A stretch of 26,249 nt of DNA, taken from IMG/VR virus record IMGVR_UViG_3300025010_000216, positions 1-26,249 of that record. One strand, written 5' to 3'. Positions within the stretch are counted from its first letter, which is position 1, and every line of letters begins with the position of its first letter. A program made the translations under genes and the position numbers. Positions 2,424 to 25,039 of this stretch are shown piece by piece. Source of the DNA: a virus. The notes below the pieces were generated by a model that worked only from the letters and a program-made list of their open reading frames with translations, made no database searches and was not told the origin of the DNA.

Positions 2424-2466
2424 ATAAATTTTAAAAGATATATTGTAATAATTTTATAAAAGATAG

Positions 2467-2520
2467 TTAAGGAGTAATTAACCTTAATGATAAGACGAGT
2501 TCCTTTCGCTCGTCTTCTTT
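2467..2520 (+). terminator. Hairpin plus Rho-independent terminator
   Basis: A small hairpin (2467-2472 TTAAGG pairing with 2482-2487 CCTTAA) is followed by a stronger one: 2492-2499 AAGACGAG pairs perfectly with 2509-2516 CTCGTCTT, loop TTCCTTTCG, then CTTTTATTG. The T-run is modest. It separates the portal block from the endonuclease-like gene that starts at 2580. Confidence 0.7.
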
Positions 2521-2579
2521 TATTGTTTAATTTTAAATTATGAAAGGAAGAAAGAAATTCATTAGAAAGGAATGATAAT

Positions 2580-3767
2580 ATGAATGGTAAAAAGAAAACA
2601 CATGAAGAATTTTGTGAAGAAGTTTTTTTAATACATAAGAATATAAAAATAATAGGTAAATATAATGGTGCTAGAAATAATATAAAAGTAAAATGTTTAA
2701 ATTGCACAGGTGAATGGGAACCAATTGCTAATAGTTTATTAAGTCATGGATGCCCTTATTGTTGTCCTACACGTAAAAAAGTTTTAATAGGATATAATGA
2801 TATTTGGACAACTAACCAAAAATTGGCAATATTGCTTTTAAATCCAGATGATGGATTTAAATACACAGAACATAGCAATAAAAAAGTTGATTTTAAATGT
2901 CCAGATTGTGGTAATGTTCTAAAGAATAAAATTATAAATGATATTTCTAGAAGAGGTATATCATGTTCTAAATGTGGAGACGGTATCCCATATCCTGAAA
3001 AATTTATATATAATTTGTTAAGACAATTAAATATAACAAATGAGCATATAAAGACACAATTATCAAAAACAACTTTTAAATGGTGTAATGACTATAAGTA
3101 TGATAATTATATATCTGAGATTAATTGTATTATTGAGACTCATGGTATGCAACATTATAAAGAATCAACAGGTAATTGGACATTTTCATTAAAAGATATA
3201 CAAGAAAATGATAAACAAAAAGAACAATTAGCAAAAGAAAATGGTATTGAGAATTACATAGTTTTAGATTGTAGAGAATCAAATTTAGAATGGATTAAAA
3301 ATAGTATTATGAATAGTCTATTACCTAGTTTATTAAATTTTAAAGAAGAAGATATTGATTGGTTGAAGTGTCATGAATATGCTTGTAATAGTTTAGTAAA
3401 AATAGCATGTGATCATTGGAATAATGGAATTAAAAATATCAATAATATTACAAATATAATTAATTTACATCGTGATACTATTAGAAAATATCTTAAACAA
3501 GGAGCAGAATTAGGTTGGTGTGATTACGATCCTAAAAAAGAATTTAAGAAAAATTTACAAGATAATATAATTAGAAGTACAAAAGTAACTTCTAAAATGG
3601 TTATGTGTATAGAAACAGGACAAATTTTTAAATCAATATCAGAAGCAGCAAAAATTGTATTAAATGGTTCTAATCATATCTCTTCATGTTGCAGAGGTAT
3701 AAGAAATACTTGTGGAAAATTAGAAGATGGAACTCCGTTACATTGGAAATATGTAGATAATATTTAA
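2580..3767 (+). CDS. Homing-endonuclease-like protein: zinc ribbons, PD-(D/E)XK-type core, NUMOD1-like C-terminus
   Basis: This 395-residue protein has two N-terminal zinc-ribbon units: C39xxC42 with CPYC near 58-61, and C107xxC110 with C129xxC132. The central segment (about 135-240) includes YDNYISEINCIIETHGMQHY. This is the signature of phage Vsr-like/EDxHD endonucleases, whose core is beta-strand, E-x-x-G-x-Q-H-Y, then a helix with charged residues. The C-terminus (about 335-395: CIETGQIFKSISEAAKIV, ending WKYV) resembles the NUMOD1 DNA-binding domain of homing endonucleases. Such enzymes cut intron-less or gene-less alleles so that repair copies their own gene. The gene sits between portal and protease genes, a usual place for a free-standing homing gene. 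The usual second acidic residue is replaced by H188, so activity is uncertain. Confidence 0.75.
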   Translation: MNGKKKTHEEFCEEVFLIHKNIKIIGKYNGARNNIKVKCLNCTGEWEPIANSLLSHGCPYCCPTRKKVLIGYNDIWTTNQKLAILLLNPDDGFKYTEHSNKKVDFKCPDCGNVLKNKIINDISRRGISCSKCGDGIPYPEKFIYNLLRQLNITNEHIKTQLSKTTFKWCNDYKYDNYISEINCIIETHGMQHYKESTGNWTFSLKDIQENDKQKEQLAKENGIENYIVLDCRESNLEWIKNSIMNSLLPSLLNFKEEDIDWLKCHEYACNSLVKIACDHWNNGIKNINNITNIINLHRDTIRKYLKQGAELGWCDYDPKKEFKKNLQDNIIRSTKVTSKMVMCIETGQIFKSISEAAKIVLNGSNHISSCCRGIRNTCGKLEDGTPLHWKYVDNI

Positions 3768-3787
3768 AGGAGGTGAAAAATAATTTT

Positions 3788-5473
3788 GTGAATAATTTAA
3801 TTATAAAATCAAATAATCAATACATAGAAATATGTGAAATGTCTGAAGAAGATGTTGCAGGTAGAGTAAAAATTCGTATGTCTTGTTTAGAAATAGTTCC
3901 AGATAATTCACATTATAATTCTAACGGAATTTCATGGTTAGAGGAATATATAGATGATAACTTGAAATCTGCAATTGGTATGCCATATGTTGTATCCTGG
4001 TTTGATGAAGAAAATCAAATACCTAGTGATCATGGAACAATGTCATACAATGAAGATGGATATGTTGAATTTGAAGGCGTGTCTGTAGGGTCTGTTCAAA
4101 ATTGCTTTATAGAAGATGTAGAAATTGATGGAATAACAAAAAAACTTCTTATGACAGAAGGGTATTTATATAGTCAGAGGTATCCTTTATTTGTAAAGTG
4201 GCTAAGAGAAGAAATTTTAAACAATAAAGTTTATGGTTCAATTGAAATTAATGGTAAAGGTAAAAATAAAAAAATTGAATATTTAGATGGGTCTACAAAC
4301 AGTGATGGAAGTATGAAAGATGGCAGAATTCCGACAAAATTCGACTTTTCTGGTTTAGCAATTTTATATTTAACTGAACCTTCAGATAAGAATAGTATTG
4401 TTTTTGAGGTTAATTCTAAACAAGATAACCTTGATATAAATACCAAAGTAACTACAGGAAAGGAGGATGATATTTTGGGTGATAAAAATATAAATAATAT
4501 AATTATTGAATTAAATGAATTAAATTACAATGATATTGCGACTTTAGTGGAAAATGTTTTTAATAAAAAAATTAACAATATAGAAAATGAAGAATATCAT
4601 TATTATTATATTCATAAATTCTATCCAACTAATTCTACATTTGTAATGAAATGTTGGAGTAAAGTAGGAGAATATTATAAGAGTTCATATTCCATTGAAA
4701 ATTCAAAGGTTATTATCGGTGACATTATAAAAGTTGAAGAATCATGGGAACCAGTAAATGGTGAGCGATCTATAGAAATTAATAAGTCACTGATTAATAT
4801 ATTAAACAATCAAACAAAGGAGGAAAAAATCAAAATGGATGAAAAAATTGTATTAGAATTTAATCAAAAAATCGAAGATAAAATTAATGAAATTAATTCA
4901 TTAACTAAATCTTTGGAACAAAAGGAATTAGAAGTTAGCACTTTGACTAAATCTTTAGATGAAAATGTAGTAGAAATTAATACTCTTACTGAAAAGGCAA
5001 AAGAATTAGAGGCAAAAGTAATTGAAGTTAATACTTTAACTGAAAAAATTCAAGAATTAGATAGTAAAGTAATTGAACTAAATACTACTATCGTTGAAGT
5101 TAATAAACTACTTGAATCTGAAAAAGCAGAAAAAGAATCTCTTACTATAGAAGTTAATTCTTTTAGGGAAGAGAAAACAAAATTAGAATCAGAAGCAAAA
5201 ATTGCAGAAGTTAATGCTTATTTTGAAACTGAAATTACTAAGAATGGTTTTGAAGAAGCAGAAATAAATTCACTTAAATCTTTTGTAGATGCTGTTGATT
5301 TAGATGGATTAAAGAAAGTAGAAGCAGAATTATGTGCAAAGAAATTTAAAGAAATGATTGCTGAAGGTAGTAATGTAGAAACCAATACTAAGAATGATAT
5401 GTTTATTTCTATTAAAGAAAAAGATGTTAAAAGAATTCCAGGTAGTATCCCTTCTTTCTTTAAAGAAGTTTAA
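3788..5473 (+). CDS. Prohead protease fused to coiled-coil scaffold
   Basis: A frame-opening GTG at 3773 lies inside the ribosome site AAAGGAGGTG, so the in-frame GTG at 3788 is the better start (561 residues). Residues below are numbered from 3773. Residues 1-200 resemble phage prohead proteases: LYSQRYPLFVKWLREEI then VYGSIEI, with S156 a candidate nucleophile and H87 a candidate partner. Such proteases trim the scaffold and often the capsid protein inside the prohead. Residues about 235-345 form a separate domain (YHYYYIHKFYP; VEESWEPV). From about 355 on comes a long coiled coil with imperfect repeats of EVNTLTEKIQELDSKVIE type, ending in a helical tail, as expected of a scaffold. Two in-frame internal starts are annotated separately. 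It lies between an endonuclease-like gene and the capsid genes. Confidence 0.65.
   Translation: MNNLIIKSNNQYIEICEMSEEDVAGRVKIRMSCLEIVPDNSHYNSNGISWLEEYIDDNLKSAIGMPYVVSWFDEENQIPSDHGTMSYNEDGYVEFEGVSVGSVQNCFIEDVEIDGITKKLLMTEGYLYSQRYPLFVKWLREEILNNKVYGSIEINGKGKNKKIEYLDGSTNSDGSMKDGRIPTKFDFSGLAILYLTEPSDKNSIVFEVNSKQDNLDINTKVTTGKEDDILGDKNINNIIIELNELNYNDIATLVENVFNKKINNIENEEYHYYYIHKFYPTNSTFVMKCWSKVGEYYKSSYSIENSKVIIGDIIKVEESWEPVNGERSIEINKSLINILNNQTKEEKIKMDEKIVLEFNQKIEDKINEINSLTKSLEQKELEVSTLTKSLDENVVEINTLTEKAKELEAKVIEVNTLTEKIQELDSKVIELNTTIVEVNKLLESEKAEKESLTIEVNSFREEKTKLESEAKIAEVNAYFETEITKNGFEEAEINSLKSFVDAVDLDGLKKVEAELCAKKFKEMIAEGSNVETNTKNDMFISIKEKDVKRIPGSIPSFFKEV
4475..5473 (+). CDS. Possible nested in-frame product (middle domain plus scaffold)
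   Basis: Inside the protease-scaffold gene, AAAGGAGG (4459-4466) is followed eight bases later by an in-frame TTG at 4475. Initiation there would give 332 residues beginning MGDKNINN, lacking the protease domain but keeping the middle domain and the scaffold. The ribosome site lies exactly at the boundary after the protease domain, which argues that it is not accidental in such A-rich DNA. It is also possible that protease and middle domain were once separate genes that fused by loss of a stop codon. Confidence 0.4.
   Translation: MGDKNINNIIIELNELNYNDIATLVENVFNKKINNIENEEYHYYYIHKFYPTNSTFVMKCWSKVGEYYKSSYSIENSKVIIGDIIKVEESWEPVNGERSIEINKSLINILNNQTKEEKIKMDEKIVLEFNQKIEDKINEINSLTKSLEQKELEVSTLTKSLDENVVEINTLTEKAKELEAKVIEVNTLTEKIQELDSKVIELNTTIVEVNKLLESEKAEKESLTIEVNSFREEKTKLESEAKIAEVNAYFETEITKNGFEEAEINSLKSFVDAVDLDGLKKVEAELCAKKFKEMIAEGSNVETNTKNDMFISIKEKDVKRIPGSIPSFFKEV
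4835..5473 (+). CDS. Nested in-frame scaffold protein
   Basis: AAAGGAGG (about 4816-4823) precedes an in-frame ATG at 4835. The predicted 212-residue product starts MDEKIVLEFNQKIEDKINE and is almost entirely coiled coil, with heptad-like repeats NTLTEK...ELxxKVIE. In lambda (C/Nu3) and many relatives the scaffold is made from an internal start in the protease gene and shares its C-terminus. The sequence here has the same arrangement. The product would line the inside of the prohead and be removed by the protease. The start codon is ATG, unlike the weaker GTG of the full-length protein, so more scaffold than protease could be made. Confidence 0.6.
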   Translation: MDEKIVLEFNQKIEDKINEINSLTKSLEQKELEVSTLTKSLDENVVEINTLTEKAKELEAKVIEVNTLTEKIQELDSKVIELNTTIVEVNKLLESEKAEKESLTIEVNSFREEKTKLESEAKIAEVNAYFETEITKNGFEEAEINSLKSFVDAVDLDGLKKVEAELCAKKFKEMIAEGSNVETNTKNDMFISIKEKDVKRIPGSIPSFFKEV

Positions 5474-7246: not shown

Positions 7247-7275
7247 TTGACAGAATACTAAAATAATTGTATAAT
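7247..7275 (+). promoter_or_regulatory. Consensus sigma-70/sigma-A promoter
   Basis: TTGACA (7247-7252) and TATAAT (7270-7275) are separated by exactly 17 bases. The predicted start of transcription is near A7282, which is also the first base of the 60-nt structured RNA. It lies eight bases after the capsid gene stop. Confidence 0.85.
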
Positions 7276-7281
7276 ACATTT

Positions 7282-7341
7282 AGGGATAGATAAAGAAGTC
7301 ATGATCTTTATCGAAAAGAGTAATTCCGATACTCCTTCCCT
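7282..7341 (+). ncRNA. 60-nt three-way-junction RNA, copy 1
   Basis: Closing stem: AGGGA (7282-7286) with TCCCT (7337-7341). Second stem: 7289-7296 GATAAAGA with 7305-7312 TCTTTATC. Third stem: 7318-7322 GAGTA with 7330-7334 TACTC, loop ATTCCGA. The second and third stems are joined by GAAAA. A second copy of identical length with different but still pairing stems lies at 16820-16879. A consensus promoter places the 5' end at the first base of the closing stem. The following sequence is T-rich but has no clear terminator. The downstream gene is an endonuclease-like gene (7390). I do not recognise the family. Confidence 0.65.
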
Positions 7342-7389
7342 ATTTAATTATATATTTTTCGGAAAATAAATTACTACGGAGGTAATGAA

Positions 7390-9015
7390 TTGGGAAAGCA
7401 AATTACATATGAAAGCATTAAAGAATATATTGATAACGAAACGACTGGTAATTGTTGTAAATTAATTACCACACAAAAAGATTTTGAGATTGAGAAATTA
7501 AAGCAAAATAAAAGTAATGTAAGTGTTAAATTAAAAATTCAATGCGGATGTACAGATAAAAATATATTTGAGACAAGTTTTGATAAATTCAAAAGTAGAA
7601 ATAAAAAACAATGTAATATTTGTGGTAAATTAATCACAAGAAATAAAAGATTACTATCATATGAATATGTTAAAAATTATATTGAAATTGAAAGTAATTC
7701 TGGATGTGAATTAATTAGTAATGAATATATTGGAATATTTGATAAACTTGAAACAAAATGTAAGTGTGGGAATCATTTTTATGTTAGTTTTGATGCTTTT
7801 AAGTATAATAATGTAAGAAGATGTTCTGAATGCTATAAAAAATCAATGAGTAAAATTAAAACACTATCTTATGAAGAAGTTAAAAATTTTATTGAAGTTG
7901 AATCAGAAAGTGGTTGTGAATTATTAAGTACAGAATACATAAATGCACATGAAAATTTAAAAGTAAAATGTAAATGTGGAAATGATTTTAATGTTTGTTT
8001 TAATAAATTTAAATCAGATAATCAAAGACAATGTCAAGAATGTGGATATAAAAGTATAGGAAATAAGTTAAGAAAACCATATGAAATAGTAAAATATTTT
8101 ATAGAAGTAAAAAGTGAAAGCAATTGTAAGTTAATAAGTAAAAAATATATAGATGCAAAAAGTAATCTAGATATCGAATGTAAATGTGGAAATAAATTTA
8201 CTACAACATATGATAATTTTTCAAGTGGTAAAAGGCAATGTGAAGTATGTGCTATGAATTTACTTTCAGAAAAATTTAAAATACCATATTGTGATATAAA
8301 AGCAATTATTGAAGGAGATAATAGTAATGGATGCAAGTTAATAACTAGTGAAATTGATTATATTAATACAAATGAAAATATTATTATTGAATGTAGATGT
8401 GGTAATAAATTCACTACGACATATAATAATTTTTTATATCAAAATAAAAAACAATGTGATGATTGTGCAAAACTCAATAAGAAACTAACTTGTTTAGCAA
8501 AATTTGGTTTTGAACATCCTATGAAAAATAAAGAGGTATCTGCAAAAGTAAGAGAAACTTTATTTAAAAATGGCAATGCTCCATGTTCTAAACAGCAAAT
8601 TTATGTTCATCAATTAATTGGTGGAGAAATAAATTATCCATACTATAATGCTTCTTTAGATGTTGCTTTTCCAGAAGAAAAATTATACGTTGAATGTGAT
8701 TTTGGAGGACATTGGTTATCAATTAAATTAGGTGGTTTAACACAAGATGCATTTGATAAGAAACAAAGAAATAGATGGTATTCATTATATCGTTCTAACT
8801 GGAGGAGTATAAATATCATCTCACGCAATGACAATCTCCCATCAGACCAAACAATCCTAGAAATGATATCTTACGCACGTACATATCTACAAAACCATCA
8901 CTACATAAAATTTGATGTAGATAATAATAAAATAATTAATTCTCAAGGTGAATTTGATTATAACTATGGTGAATTAAGAAAAATTAAATTAACCGACTTA
9001 AAAGAAGCAATATAA
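7390..9015 (+). CDS. Homing-endonuclease-like protein with five zinc-ribbon repeats and EDxHD-type nuclease
   Basis: The gene starts at TTG 7390 after CGGAGGTAATGAA; 541 residues. The first about 370 residues are five tandem units of roughly 70 residues, each of the form YE-VK-FIE-ES-SGCELIS...CKCGN-F...C-x-x-C, which should bind zinc and contact DNA. Next comes CLAKFGFEHPMKNKEVSAKV, resembling the DUF723-type repeats of phage homing enzymes. The C-terminal nuclease (about 395-510) has SKQQ...LDVAF (D424), then YVECDFGGHW with E435, D437 and H441, fitting the EDxHD/Vsr-like PD-(D/E)XK family. It lies after the major capsid gene. Codon use shifts towards C-ending codons in the last about 40 codons of the nuclease region (8790-8910), suggesting a mosaic gene. 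Confidence 0.78.
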   Translation: MGKQITYESIKEYIDNETTGNCCKLITTQKDFEIEKLKQNKSNVSVKLKIQCGCTDKNIFETSFDKFKSRNKKQCNICGKLITRNKRLLSYEYVKNYIEIESNSGCELISNEYIGIFDKLETKCKCGNHFYVSFDAFKYNNVRRCSECYKKSMSKIKTLSYEEVKNFIEVESESGCELLSTEYINAHENLKVKCKCGNDFNVCFNKFKSDNQRQCQECGYKSIGNKLRKPYEIVKYFIEVKSESNCKLISKKYIDAKSNLDIECKCGNKFTTTYDNFSSGKRQCEVCAMNLLSEKFKIPYCDIKAIIEGDNSNGCKLITSEIDYINTNENIIIECRCGNKFTTTYNNFLYQNKKQCDDCAKLNKKLTCLAKFGFEHPMKNKEVSAKVRETLFKNGNAPCSKQQIYVHQLIGGEINYPYYNASLDVAFPEEKLYVECDFGGHWLSIKLGGLTQDAFDKKQRNRWYSLYRSNWRSINIISRNDNLPSDQTILEMISYARTYLQNHHYIKFDVDNNKIINSQGEFDYNYGELRKIKLTDLKEAI

Positions 9016-12609: not shown

Positions 12610-12657
12610 TTAAAATAAATTACTTAGATTAATATTATAATAATTTAATAATGGTTG

Positions 12658-12723
12658 CTTATTAAGGTTGCAAACTTAATAAGTGTAAAACAACAAGACT
12701 ATGCCGTTACATAGTCTTTTTTT
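12658..12723 (+). terminator. Hairpin/pseudoknot followed by Rho-independent terminator
   Basis: First hairpin: CTTATTAAG (12658-12666) with CTTAATAAG (12675-12683). Its loop holds GTTG (12667-12670), complementary to CAAC (12691-12694), so an H-type pseudoknot is possible. Terminator: AAGACTATG (12695-12703) with CATAGTCTT (12710-12718), loop CCGTTA, and a T-run to 12723. It ends the neck gene block before the third endonuclease-like gene. Confidence 0.75.
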
Positions 12724-12761
12724 CCATTTATCTCTTTATAACGGAAAGGAGAATTTGAAAA

Positions 12762-14354
12762 ATGGGTAAAAGAAAATATACATACGAAGAAGTAAAACAT
12801 TTTATAGAAGTAGAAAGTAATAGTGATTGTAAACTCATATCAACTGAATATCATTGTAATTCAGACAATTTAATAATTGAATGTAGATGTGAGACAAGAT
12901 TTAATGCATCTTTTAGTAAATTTAAAGATCGTAATAAAAGACAATGTAATAAATGTAGTGGAATGATACCTTGGAATATAGATTCTATAAAACAATTTAT
13001 AGAAATAGATAGTATGAGTGGTTGTAAACTTATTTCTAAGATTTATACGGGGATAAAAGATAAAATAGATATAGAATGTAGGTGTGGAAGACCATTTAGT
13101 GTTTCTTTTGATGTATTTAAAAATAAAAAACAAAGACAATGTGGATATTGTAGTAATAAAATAAATTTAAACACTAACAATGTTAGAGAATATGTAAATG
13201 ATTTAGGTTATGAATTAATTAGTGATTATATAAATTCAAAAGAAAATATTATAATAAAAGATAAATATGGTTTTTATTATTGTGTTCTTTTTCATAATCT
13301 TAAAAAATATAAAACACTCCCAATAGCAAGTACTTCAAATATTTATAGTATTCAAAATATACAATTATGGTGTAAATTAAATATTAAATCATTTGAATTA
13401 ATTAGTAATACATACAAAAAAGGTAAACTTAAATGGAAATGTTTAAAAGATGATTGCGGTGAAATATTTGAAATGAGTTGGGATTGTATTCAAAGTGGAC
13501 AAAATTGTTCATATTGTGCAGGGAAAAAAGTAGGTTTATCAAATTGCCTAGCAACCAAAAATCCTGAACTTACAAAAGAATGGCACTCTACTAAGAATGG
13601 AAAGTTAACCCCATATGATGTTACTGCAAATAGCGGTAAAAAAATTTGGTGGCAATGTAGTAAAAACCCTAAACATGAGTGGGATGATTTTATATCAAAT
13701 AGAAATAAATCAATTAACTGTCCATACTGTTCACATGAAAGACCAAGTGAAGATTATAATTTATTAAAAGATAATCCTGAATTATGTGAAGAATGGGATT
13801 ATAAAAAGAACAAAAAGAAACCAGAAGAATATACCCCAGGTAGTGGAGAATATGTTTATTGGAAATGCAAAGAATGTGGACATGAATGGTATGCACAAAT
13901 TAATAGTAGAAATCGTGGGATTGGTTGTCCTGAATGTAATAAATCTAAAGGTGAAAAAGAATGTAAAAGAGTTTTTATATCTAAAGGTTTTATTGAAATT
14001 AGTCAAGAGGAATATAATATATTATCAGATATAGATAAAAACAAATACATATACTTTATTCCTCAAATGAAATTTGATAATCTAATTGGTCTTGGTGGTG
14101 GTCTTTTATCTTATGATTTTTATATACCAAAATATAATCTTCTCACAGAGTACGATGGTGAATTTCATTATAAACCAATTAAAAAATATAAAAATGAACC
14201 TATGAAATACGCAGAAGAAAGATTAAGAAAACAGCAAATACATGATAAGTTTAAAGATGAATATGCACAAGATAATAAAATAATTTTATTAAGGATTCCC
14301 TATTGGGATTTTGATAACATCGAATCAATCCTTACTAAAGAATTAGGTTTATAA
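12762..14354 (+). CDS. Homing-endonuclease-like protein with zinc ribbons and EDxHD-type nuclease
   Basis: This 530-residue protein starts at ATG after AAAGGAG. Two N-terminal repeats (YEEVKHFIEVESNSDCKLIS...CRC...C-x-x-C) are the same unit as in the gene at 7390. The centre has treble-clef/zinc-ribbon units of DUF4379 type: NPELTKEWHSTKNGKLTPYD with WWQCSKNPKHEW and CPYC, then a second with WKCKECGHEWYAQI and CPEC. The C-terminal nuclease has YDFYIPKYNLLTEYDGEFHY (D452, E463, D465, H469) and a helix with K/R residues ending ILLRIPYWD, the standard EDxHD core. It lies after head closure and before tail genes. The shared N-terminal repeats with the gene at 7390, but different central ribbons, show modular shuffling. 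Confidence 0.8.
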   Translation: MGKRKYTYEEVKHFIEVESNSDCKLISTEYHCNSDNLIIECRCETRFNASFSKFKDRNKRQCNKCSGMIPWNIDSIKQFIEIDSMSGCKLISKIYTGIKDKIDIECRCGRPFSVSFDVFKNKKQRQCGYCSNKINLNTNNVREYVNDLGYELISDYINSKENIIIKDKYGFYYCVLFHNLKKYKTLPIASTSNIYSIQNIQLWCKLNIKSFELISNTYKKGKLKWKCLKDDCGEIFEMSWDCIQSGQNCSYCAGKKVGLSNCLATKNPELTKEWHSTKNGKLTPYDVTANSGKKIWWQCSKNPKHEWDDFISNRNKSINCPYCSHERPSEDYNLLKDNPELCEEWDYKKNKKKPEEYTPGSGEYVYWKCKECGHEWYAQINSRNRGIGCPECNKSKGEKECKRVFISKGFIEISQEEYNILSDIDKNKYIYFIPQMKFDNLIGLGGGLLSYDFYIPKYNLLTEYDGEFHYKPIKKYKNEPMKYAEERLRKQQIHDKFKDEYAQDNKIILLRIPYWDFDNIESILTKELGL

Positions 14355-16807: not shown

Positions 16808-16813
16808 TATAAT
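16808..16813 (+). promoter_or_regulatory. -10 element before RNA copy 2
   Basis: TATAAT lies in the same context as in the promoter of copy 1 (AAAATAATTGTATAATA) and at the same six-base distance from AGGGA. The -35 position (16785-16790) reads TAATTA, a poor match, and overlaps the chaperone stop codon. Promoter activity is therefore less certain than for copy 1. Confidence 0.5.
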
Positions 16814-16819
16814 ATATTT

Positions 16820-16879
16820 AGGGATAGATATGAATTAGCTATTCATATTGAAAAGGCAATATCCGAGTTGCTCTTCCCT
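16820..16879 (+). ncRNA. 60-nt three-way-junction RNA, copy 2
   Basis: Closing stem AGGGA (16820-16824) with TCCCT (16875-16879); second stem ATATGAAT (16828-16835) with ATTCATAT (16841-16848) plus a G-T pair; third stem GGCAA (16855-16859) with TTGCT (16868-16872). The GAAAA linker and UCCGA loop core match copy 1, while stem bases differ and still pair. Unlike copy 1, it is not followed by an endonuclease gene. Confidence 0.65.
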
Positions 16880-17157
16880 ATTGTATATTTTTATATGAGA
16901 AAAGAAAGTGGTAATAAGTATGAGTAGTAGATGTTCAGGGACAGAACCTAGTTTAAAGACTGGTAGTTTATTGTAGCTAGATAAGAAAGGTTAGATGTAA
17001 AAATTTAATTGTGTTCCAAACTTCGCTTTTATATTAATTTTAACTTTGTAAAACTCTTATATATTAAGGTTTTTAGAAAGTGAAAATTAATATAAACAAA
17101 ACAATTATATAAAAAAATAATTCCATAATTATTTTACAAAAAGAAAGGAATGATACT
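16880..17157. other. Gene-poor stretch after RNA copy 2
   Basis: There is no convincing gene here. An 18-codon ATG frame at 16920 lacks a ribosome site. A 13-base inverted repeat, TTATATTAATTTT near 17029 and its complement near 17080, encloses a smaller A/T hairpin. In related phages the tape-measure gene would be expected here, so the stretch may mark a deletion or rearrangement. Confidence 0.4.
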
Positions 17158-20807: not shown

Positions 20808-20848
20808 TTATATTAAATAATAAAATAATATAAAATTTATATGTAATT

Positions 20849-20902
20849 AAATAAAAGACTCTGCTATTAATATTATCTATTATTTAGCAGAGTCTTTTAT
20901 TT
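20849..20902 (+). terminator. Strong Rho-independent terminator
   Basis: 20849-20866 pairs over about 18 bases with 20885-20902 (core AAAGACTCTGCTA with its complement), followed by T-rich sequence. The A-run on the left arm could make it act in both directions. It marks the end of the structural block. Confidence 0.85.
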
Positions 20903-20903
20903 T

Positions 20904-21003
20904 GTAAGCAGATTGATTAAGATTTTGCTAACAAATTAATTGTTAACATAAGTAAATTAAAATTGTTTCAATTCCCTACGGGAAGTAGATTCAATCTGCT
21001 TGT
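20904..21003 (+). ncRNA. Candidate structured element closed by an 11-bp stem
   Basis: AAGCAGATTGA (20906-20916) pairs perfectly with TCAATCTGCTT (20991-21001), extended by two G-T pairs. Inside are TAACAA/TTGTTA (20929-20934 with 20940-20945) and TTCCC/GGGAA (20972-20976 with 20980-20984, loop TAC). It lies between a terminator and the resolvase-like gene. No clear promoter was found, so it could be an RNA or a DNA site. Confidence 0.4.
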
Positions 21004-24292: not shown

Positions 24293-25039
24293 ATGTTAGA
24301 AATTAATAAAATATATAATAATGATTGTATAGGTGAAAATGGAATGTGTTTAATTGATGATAAGAGTGTAGATTGTATAATTTGCGACTTGCCTTATGGT
24401 ACTACAATGGCAAAATGGGATAAAATCATAAATCAAGAATTATTATGGAAAGAATATAGAAGAATAATAAAAGAAAAAGGTGCAATTGTATTAACCTCAA
24501 GTCAACCATTTTCAAGTTTATTAGTATATAAAAACAATGATATATATAAACATTCATGGATTTGGGAGAAAAATAATTCTGCAGACTATGCAAACGCTAA
24601 TTGTAGACCAATGAAAATACATGAAGATATTTTAGTATTTTCTTTTGCTTCAGATGTAGCACCAGGAAAAATAAAAATGAAATATAATCCACAAGATTTA
24701 ATTGTATGTAATAAAATTAATAAAAGAGGAAGAAATAGTGAAACTACAGGACATTTTAATGAAAATGAGTATATACAAAAATATACTAATTATCCTAGAA
24801 CAATTTTAAAATTTGATTTAGATAAAAAGAAAATTCATAGTACTCAAAAACCTGTAGCACTATTTGAATACTTAATAAAAACCTATACAAACGAAGATGA
24901 TTTAATTTTAGATAATTGTATGGGATCGTTTACTACTGCAGTTGCCTGTATAAATACCAAAAGAAATTTTATTGGATTTGAATTAGATGAAAAATATTAT
25001 GAATTAGGGCAGAAAAGATTAGAAGAATTAAATAAATAA
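24293..25039 (+). CDS. DNA methyltransferase (N6-adenine or N4-cytosine type)
   Basis: This 248-residue protein starts at ATG after AAGGAGG. The catalytic motif DLPYG (D32-Y35, the DPPY motif IV) lies near the N-terminus. The S-adenosylmethionine-binding region is at the C-terminus: QKPVALFEYLIKTYT, then DNCMGSFTTAVACINTKRNF (motif I, from residue 207) and IGFELDEKYY. This order is the beta class. DNCMGSFTT is close to the usual DPFMGSGTT, although the second G of FxGxG is F. No endonuclease partner is adjacent, so it is an orphan phage enzyme, likely protecting DNA from host restriction or marking it. Target sequence cannot be read. An elaborate leader precedes it. Confidence 0.85.
   Translation: MLEINKIYNNDCIGENGMCLIDDKSVDCIICDLPYGTTMAKWDKIINQELLWKEYRRIIKEKGAIVLTSSQPFSSLLVYKNNDIYKHSWIWEKNNSADYANANCRPMKIHEDILVFSFASDVAPGKIKMKYNPQDLIVCNKINKRGRNSETTGHFNENEYIQKYTNYPRTILKFDLDKKKIHSTQKPVALFEYLIKTYTNEDDLILDNCMGSFTTAVACINTKRNFIGFELDEKYYELGQKRLEELNK

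Follow-up and report, generated by a model that had tools for sequence, protein, structure and literature searches.

A three-way-junction RNA preceding phage homing endonuclease genes, a candidate translational leader with a palindromic loop

Homing endonucleases are selfish DNA-cutting genes, and their dose must be controlled. HEARO/OMEGA RNA is a noncoding RNA that adjoins HNH endonuclease genes of the IscB type. The put RNA of HK022 is short and structured, lies right behind a phage promoter, and occurs in more than one copy per genome. The kissing loop of the HIV-1 DIS is a self-complementary 6-nt palindrome in a hairpin loop, flanked by 5' purines. An SD (Shine-Dalgarno)-sequestering RNA is an established restraint on the homing endonucleases of T4-type phages (PMC2988022). 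In the T-even examples I-TevI, I-TevII, I-TevIII, segB, and Aeh1 mobE, RNA structures can hide the RBS and a gene-specific promoter is present; the structures are individual hairpins, and the late promoter is sited so that late transcripts skip them (PMC2988022).

The window analyzed here is the whole of a 26,249-base IMG/VR virus record, which carries portal, tail-collar, and other structural genes as well as several endonuclease genes. As with the T-even endonucleases, an RNA structure that can hide the RBS precedes a phage homing endonuclease gene with its own promoter. Unlike in those phages, one conserved three-way junction, starting at the promoter, is common to unrelated endonuclease families, and its sequence predicts a choice between loop-SD and loop-decoy pairing together with a palindromic dimer loop. 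The RNA resembles HEARO/OMEGA RNA in being noncoding and adjacent to HNH endonuclease genes; it differs in its length of ~60 nt, in accompanying nucleases that differ in fold, GIY-YIG enzymes among them, and in having the gene's own SD as its predicted pairing partner and no guide-like part. With put it shares the short structured form behind a promoter and the several copies in a genome, whereas its pairing partners and gene association are different. Like the retroviral DIS, it has a palindromic P2 loop with extra bases on the 5' side; unlike the HIV-1 DIS, it is a phage leader RNA with a putative dimer and no genome packaging. We found no description of such an RNA in the literature.

Copies, fold, and relatives of the RNA

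A sequence-only reading of the window had singled out two 60-mers, at positions 7282 to 7341 and 16820 to 16879, as copies of one structured RNA. Both lie exactly there, and their joint pattern had 0/100 matches in the shuffled window. The number of copies was too low, however, as the window carries four, at 7282, 16820, 2459, and, in divergent form, 12650 (Table 1). Similarly, the 60-mer at 7282 to 7341 stands, but a loop-complementary site (7359 to 7364) and an SD (7377 to 7382) also belong to the conserved unit, which therefore extends past 7341. For copies 1 and 2 the predicted fold is a three-way junction (-14.9 and -16.0 kcal/mol; z scores, -2.2 and -2.0), and P1 is AGGGA/UCCCU in both.

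Table 1. RNA copies, pairing sites, promoter elements, and downstream genes in the window (R1 E values are rough, from a shortened calibration)
Feature	Position	Strand	Basis or detail
Copy 1 promoter, TTGACA-17-TATAAT	7247..7275	+	12/12 sigma-70 consensus
Copy 1, three-way-junction RNA	7282..7341	+	Fold; R1 E 7e-11; covariation
Copy 1 P1	7282-7286/7337-7341	+	Fold
Copy 1 P2	7289-7296/7305-7312	+	Fold; palindromic loop UCAUGA, 7299-7304
Copy 1 P3	7318-7322/7330-7334	+	Fold; loop AUUCCGA, 7323-7329
Copy 1 site 1, UCGGAA	7359..7364	+	Complementary to P3 loop UUCCGA; permutation test
Copy 1 SD of endonuclease gene, CGGAGG	7377..7382	+	CGGA pairs with P3 loop UCCG
Gene after copy 1, homing endonuclease-like	7390..9015	+	phrog_559 HNH endonuclease, 1.9e-32
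Copy 2 -10 box, TATAAT	16808..16813	+	Sequence
Copy 2, same RNA	16820..16879	+	P2 loop palindrome UAGCUA, 16836-16841; P3 loop AUAUCCGAG; orphan, with neither an endonuclease ORF nor a loop-complementary site after it
Copy 3	2459..2520	+	R1 E 1.1e-7
Copy 3 P1, AAAGA/UCUUU	within 2459..2520	+	Extendable by AUA/UAU
Copy 3 P2 loop palindrome, UAAUUA	2475-2480	+	
Copy 3 P3 loop, UUCCUUUC	2500-2507	+	
Copy 3 site 1, GAAAGGAA	2542..2549	+	8-nt exact complement of P3 loop
Copy 3 site 2, GAAAGGAA, endonuclease SD region	2565..2572	+	8-nt exact complement of same P3 loop
Gene after copy 3, homing endonuclease-like	2580..3767	+	DUF4379; phrog_4538/phrog_559
Copy 4, divergent	12650..12728	+	Fold z -4.1; spotted by eye, below model threshold
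Copy 4 P1, AAUGG/CCAUU	within 12650..12728	+	
Copy 4 P2	12657-12666/12675-12684	+	Loop palindrome UUGCAA, 12668-12673
Copy 4 P3	12695-12703/12710-12718	+	Loop CCGUUA, 12704-12709
Copy 4 UAACGG	12739..12744	+	Exact complement of P3 loop; abuts SD AAGGAG
Gene after copy 4, homing endonuclease-like	12762..14354	+	DUF4379, 2.7e-36; phrog_559, 8e-61

Relatives were collected from IMG/VR pattern scans, in which the true ones were recognized by their structure and by a TATAAT box 6 to 8 nt upstream, and a genome scan yielded the Clostridium difficile contig NZ_JRHN01000042.1 and a Clostridia MAG. In all, ~45 distinct relatives were found in viral contigs, the C. difficile contig, and the MAG, and 48 nonredundant members are listed, leader sequence included. 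Seventeen relatives were aligned by structure, with loops padded with N so that MAFFT preserved the columns, and covariance models R1, R2, and R3 were built from structural alignments. R1 and R2 detected further copies, both in the phage records already known to carry one and in related records, among them the third copy of the window. The covariance-model search of phage and clostridial genomes that had been proposed from the sequence thus returned further covarying homologues. R2, built without the GC-rich members L463 and L465, matched both at a rough E value of 0.013; in R3 the two are members by construction.

In the final structural alignment, 98.7% of the cells are paired, compared to 76% in shuffled alignments and ~50% with slid partners, and double-sided changes occur at 14 of 20 pairs (74 such cells versus 19 in shuffles). 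These counts lean towards structure because the alignment was hand-fitted to it; safeguards against this bias are the control with slid partners and the members that were found independently. P1, invariant in the first set through the search design, occurs as AGGGA/UCCCU, AAAGA/UCUUU, AGAGA/UCUUU, UGGGA/UCCCG, and GUGGA/UCCAC, the last in the pair of contigs with 58% GC (L463 and L465). The covariation of stems that had been read from two copies as selection on an RNA structure is therefore seen in P2, P3, and also P1, and the joint-pattern shuffles and the covariation led us to reject a chance origin.

Rfam covariance models gave nothing overlapping copies 1 to 3 in the window even at an E value of ≤5, in agreement with the earlier failure to match a known RNA class. 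Matches to rox2 and mir-8186 in the window were sub-threshold noise, and a further sub-threshold match, to Plastid-rpoB (E 0.36; 27 of 45 bits), touches copy 4 in its P3 hairpin and was also taken as noise. The family, with its junction, pseudoknot, and palindrome, is absent from Rfam. The mir-8186 model scores on both strands of a near-perfect inverted repeat at 20845 to 20906 (AAAAGACTCTGCTA...TAGCAGAGTCTTTT), which is probably a two-way terminator. The window also contains an N6/N4 DNA methylase gene at 24293 to 25039 (Pfam, 1.2e-28).

When ten members were compared by BLAST with 50,697 phage records, no match was obtained, and R2 and R3 found none near related endonucleases in annotated regions of Staphylococcus, Psychrobacillus, and Geobacillus phages; absence from annotated phages is based on these BLAST searches and few regions. 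A huge-phage BLAST match, LR756500.1, was rejected, as it covers only a 36-nt AT-rich stretch and no RNA is there. R3 was also run over other phage loci totaling ~1.85 Mb, with no convincing match: the best (L125; rough E value, 7e-4) was rejected as having no P2, and another (L091) as having no loop complementarity. Among the prokaryote genomes searched on the Clostridia side (391 + 396 + 71), only the two seed genomes were positive.

Promoters and downstream endonuclease genes

The promoter of copy 1 is the best among 161 promoter-like sites. The earlier reading had called it perfect and had predicted a start at the 5'-terminal base of the closing stem; it indeed fits the consensus at every position. 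Copy 2 has a -10 box and no other promoter element. In nearly all AGGGA-type members a TATAAT box lies 6 to 8 nt upstream, partly as a result of the search design, while AAAGA-type members often have no clear -10 box at this spacing; the promoter is not universal in the family. The GC-rich relatives (L463, L465 1906-1962) have the palindrome UGGCCA and precede a NUMOD4-HNH-like gene. Their upstream boxes (TAACTTTGC in L465 and TACACTTGC in L463) resemble the Bacteroidota -7 element, TAnnTTTG, which suggests that the RNA crosses phyla. The host range is drawn from a single contig of C. difficile, a single Clostridia MAG, and this promoter resemblance.

Since the first base of the RNA coincides with the predicted +1, and P1 would enclose the 5' end, a put-like antiterminator or a 5' stability element could be envisaged. 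We regard this as very improbable, as it would leave unexplained the covariation of the P3 loop with sites farther downstream (site 1 and the SD), the palindromic loop, and the endonuclease link.

The gene after the RNA, with its ORF starting ~30 to 90 nt downstream, nearly always encodes a homing endonuclease of one of several unrelated types (part of the downstream ORFs were profile scanned, and the others were judged from their first residues). These include DUF4379/phrog_559 (the window, L395, L396, and L376), NUMOD4-HNH (L309), GIY-YIG (L161, L349, and L392), NUMOD3 (L148), HNH with zf-FCS (L025), and DUF7487/phrog_12131 (L097 and L306) proteins. In the window, three of the four copies precede an endonuclease gene; directly behind the first of these genes lies a 566-amino-acid ORF (3773 to 5473) with no Pfam or PHROG match. 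Most NUMOD4 and GIY-YIG relatives have no such RNA. No match to IscB or TnpB, the associates expected of a HEARO/OMEGA RNA, was found among the associated proteins.

Five members are orphans with no endonuclease gene (copy 2 of the window, L305, L299, L307, and L311). L307 and L311 retain site 1, and the other three, copy 2 included, keep neither site 1 nor an endonuclease gene. The RNA may therefore be vestigial or serve a separate function. In three further members (L004, L062, and L394) the contig has only a short or interrupted reading frame after the RNA. The 280 nt between copy 2 and the next structural gene (16880 to 17157) contain no clear ORF and may be the trace left by an endonuclease gene that has been lost.

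In the C. difficile contig (L313, 3340 to 4830), a tail tape-measure gene that is intact in phiCD418 is interrupted at codon 334 by a 1.34-kb insertion, and the cassette lies within this insertion. The insertion carries the leader RNA and an HNH gene, has the borders ...GTGACT^GAAATAC... and ...AACTATTG^GATGG... and a plausible internal guide, and ends in G, the 5' exon ending in U. Rfam gave no match above noise for the insertion; from these sequence features we take it to be a probable group I intron that escapes the Rfam models. The leader therefore accompanies free-standing and probably also intron-borne endonucleases. That the RNA itself is a group I or II intron was rejected, as no Rfam intron was found and the C. 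difficile member is the leader of its endonuclease.

Loop pairings

In nearly all members the P2 loop is a 6-nt palindrome, with exceptions in L299, L307, L004, and L311. At least 10 different palindromes occur (UCAUGA, UAGCUA, UAAUUA, UGAUCA, UCGCGA, UUCGAA, UUGCAA, AUCGAU, GUCGAC, and UGGCCA); those of long-P2 members were read by eye, the automatic finder having taken the wrong hairpin there. Between 96% and 98% of the palindrome cells are paired, with 14 double changes, a result reached in 0/500 shuffles, and the two inner pairs covary. The apical loop is thus self-complementary and covarying, as the sequence of a kissing-loop homodimer should be. The commonest palindrome, UAAUUA, is predicted to form a weak kissing pair.

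The P2 stem is dyad-like and lies at about +8 to +30, just past the promoter, where an inverted repeat could also be a DNA operator bound by a dimeric repressor. The extra loop bases, however, are on the 5' side, and the center of the palindrome is often 0 to 1 bp off the center of the stem. A kissing dimer therefore fits better than an operator, which was rejected on loop asymmetry, would not account for P1, P3, or the loop-SD pairing, and is in our estimate extremely improbable.

The P3 loop of most members is complementary both to site 1, which lies 5 to 35 nt past the RNA, and to the SD region in front of the following ORF, the complementarity expected of an SD-sequestering endonuclease leader. 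The mean longest Watson-Crick run with the loop's own site 1 was 6.35 nt, compared to 4.42 nt with those of other members (31 loops), and the corresponding values for the SD region were 6.15 and 4.40 nt (n = 26). None of 20,000 permutations was as good in either case (P < 5e-5 each), with the proviso that related loops are not fully independent; the permutation test takes in the common purine/pyrimidine bias of the SD and the P3 loop. Examples are CUCCUAC in L348, with the complement GUAGGAG present twice; UUCCUUGU in L349, with partners ACAAGGAA and ACAAGGA; AAUCCUAUC in L463, with GAUAGGAUU and AUAGGA; and, in two further members, AUUAGCCUAU with AUAGGCUAAU and AGGAGGCUAAU-AUG and GCCUAAG with UUAGGC and CUUAGGC. 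Mean predicted duplex energies in 26 members were similar for the two alternatives, at -8.1 kcal/mol for loop-site 1 and -9.2 kcal/mol for loop-SD, rough averages since the site 1 stretch was taken too short in a few members; pairing of the SD with the 16S tail is slightly stronger than both (-10.7 kcal/mol). Copy 4 and L379 have one complementary site each, adjoining or overlapping the SD, and the two-site switch is therefore not universal.

These pairings bear on whether the RNA acts in cis. A free small RNA of ~60 to 80 nt, ending near P3 or P1 and acting in trans on the SDs of endonucleases, those of coinfecting phages included, with orphans such as that at 16820 as regulators, would suit the coincidence of promoter and RNA 5' end in many members, the terminator-like P3 of copies 3 and 4 with U-rich sequence after it, and the existence of orphans. 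Most P3 hairpins, however, are followed by no U-run, the loop of copy 2 has only 4 to 5 nt in common with the other leaders of the window, and the loop of each leader covaries with its own site 1 and SD, an argument for action in cis. We hold the trans-acting RNA to be quite unlikely.

The junction letters AUAG, UGAUAAG, and CUU are constant among members that differ in P2, P3, and part of P1, the GC-rich L463 and L465 included. They could form the binding site of a ligand- or protein-sensing leader, riboswitch-like or repressor bound, with the loop-SD pairing as its expression platform, for which two alternative pairings are the usual design. On the other hand, folding alone can account for the conserved junctions, no known ligand class is alike and Rfam gave no match, and the controlled gene is nearly always an endonuclease, across different phages, and not a metabolic gene. 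A sensing leader thus appears unlikely, though it merits consideration.

Proposed function and significance

We consider it rather likely, judging from the sequences, that the RNA is a new cis-acting leader that steers the translation of homing endonucleases by setting a decoy site against the SD, probably as a homodimer. It would form the 5' leader in mobile cassettes carrying a homing-endonuclease gene (HEG); transcription would begin with the first P1 base or close to it, and the P3 loop would serve as an anti-SD. Pairing of this loop with site 1 would give a local pseudoknot, formed first during transcription, that leaves the SD free and allows the endonuclease to be made, whereas pairing with the SD would turn translation off, site 1 competing for the loop as a decoy. 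The P2 loops of two transcripts may kiss, so that the leader could act as a homodimer, and transcript concentration or dimer state would bias the choice between site 1 and the SD. The outcome would be a low or timed dose of the DNA-cutting enzyme, whichever enzyme follows.

More tentatively, and with a fair measure of doubt, the leader might be a mobile, enzyme-independent module that selfish endonuclease genes carry among phages of Bacillota and Bacteroidota and that dimerizes with itself, senses its own transcript level via the kissing loop, and switches the P3 loop between decoy and SD; the orphans, as copies that outlasted their endonuclease genes, might then act in trans against incoming endonucleases.

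One plug-in RNA regulator appears to be common to unrelated endonuclease families, and control by RNA therefore seems to travel with the selfish genes independently of the enzyme. In phage genomes, the conserved RNA is a marker both of endonuclease cassettes and of what is left of them, and the combination of a palindromic dimer loop with a two-site loop choice is simple and would be a ready-made translational switch.
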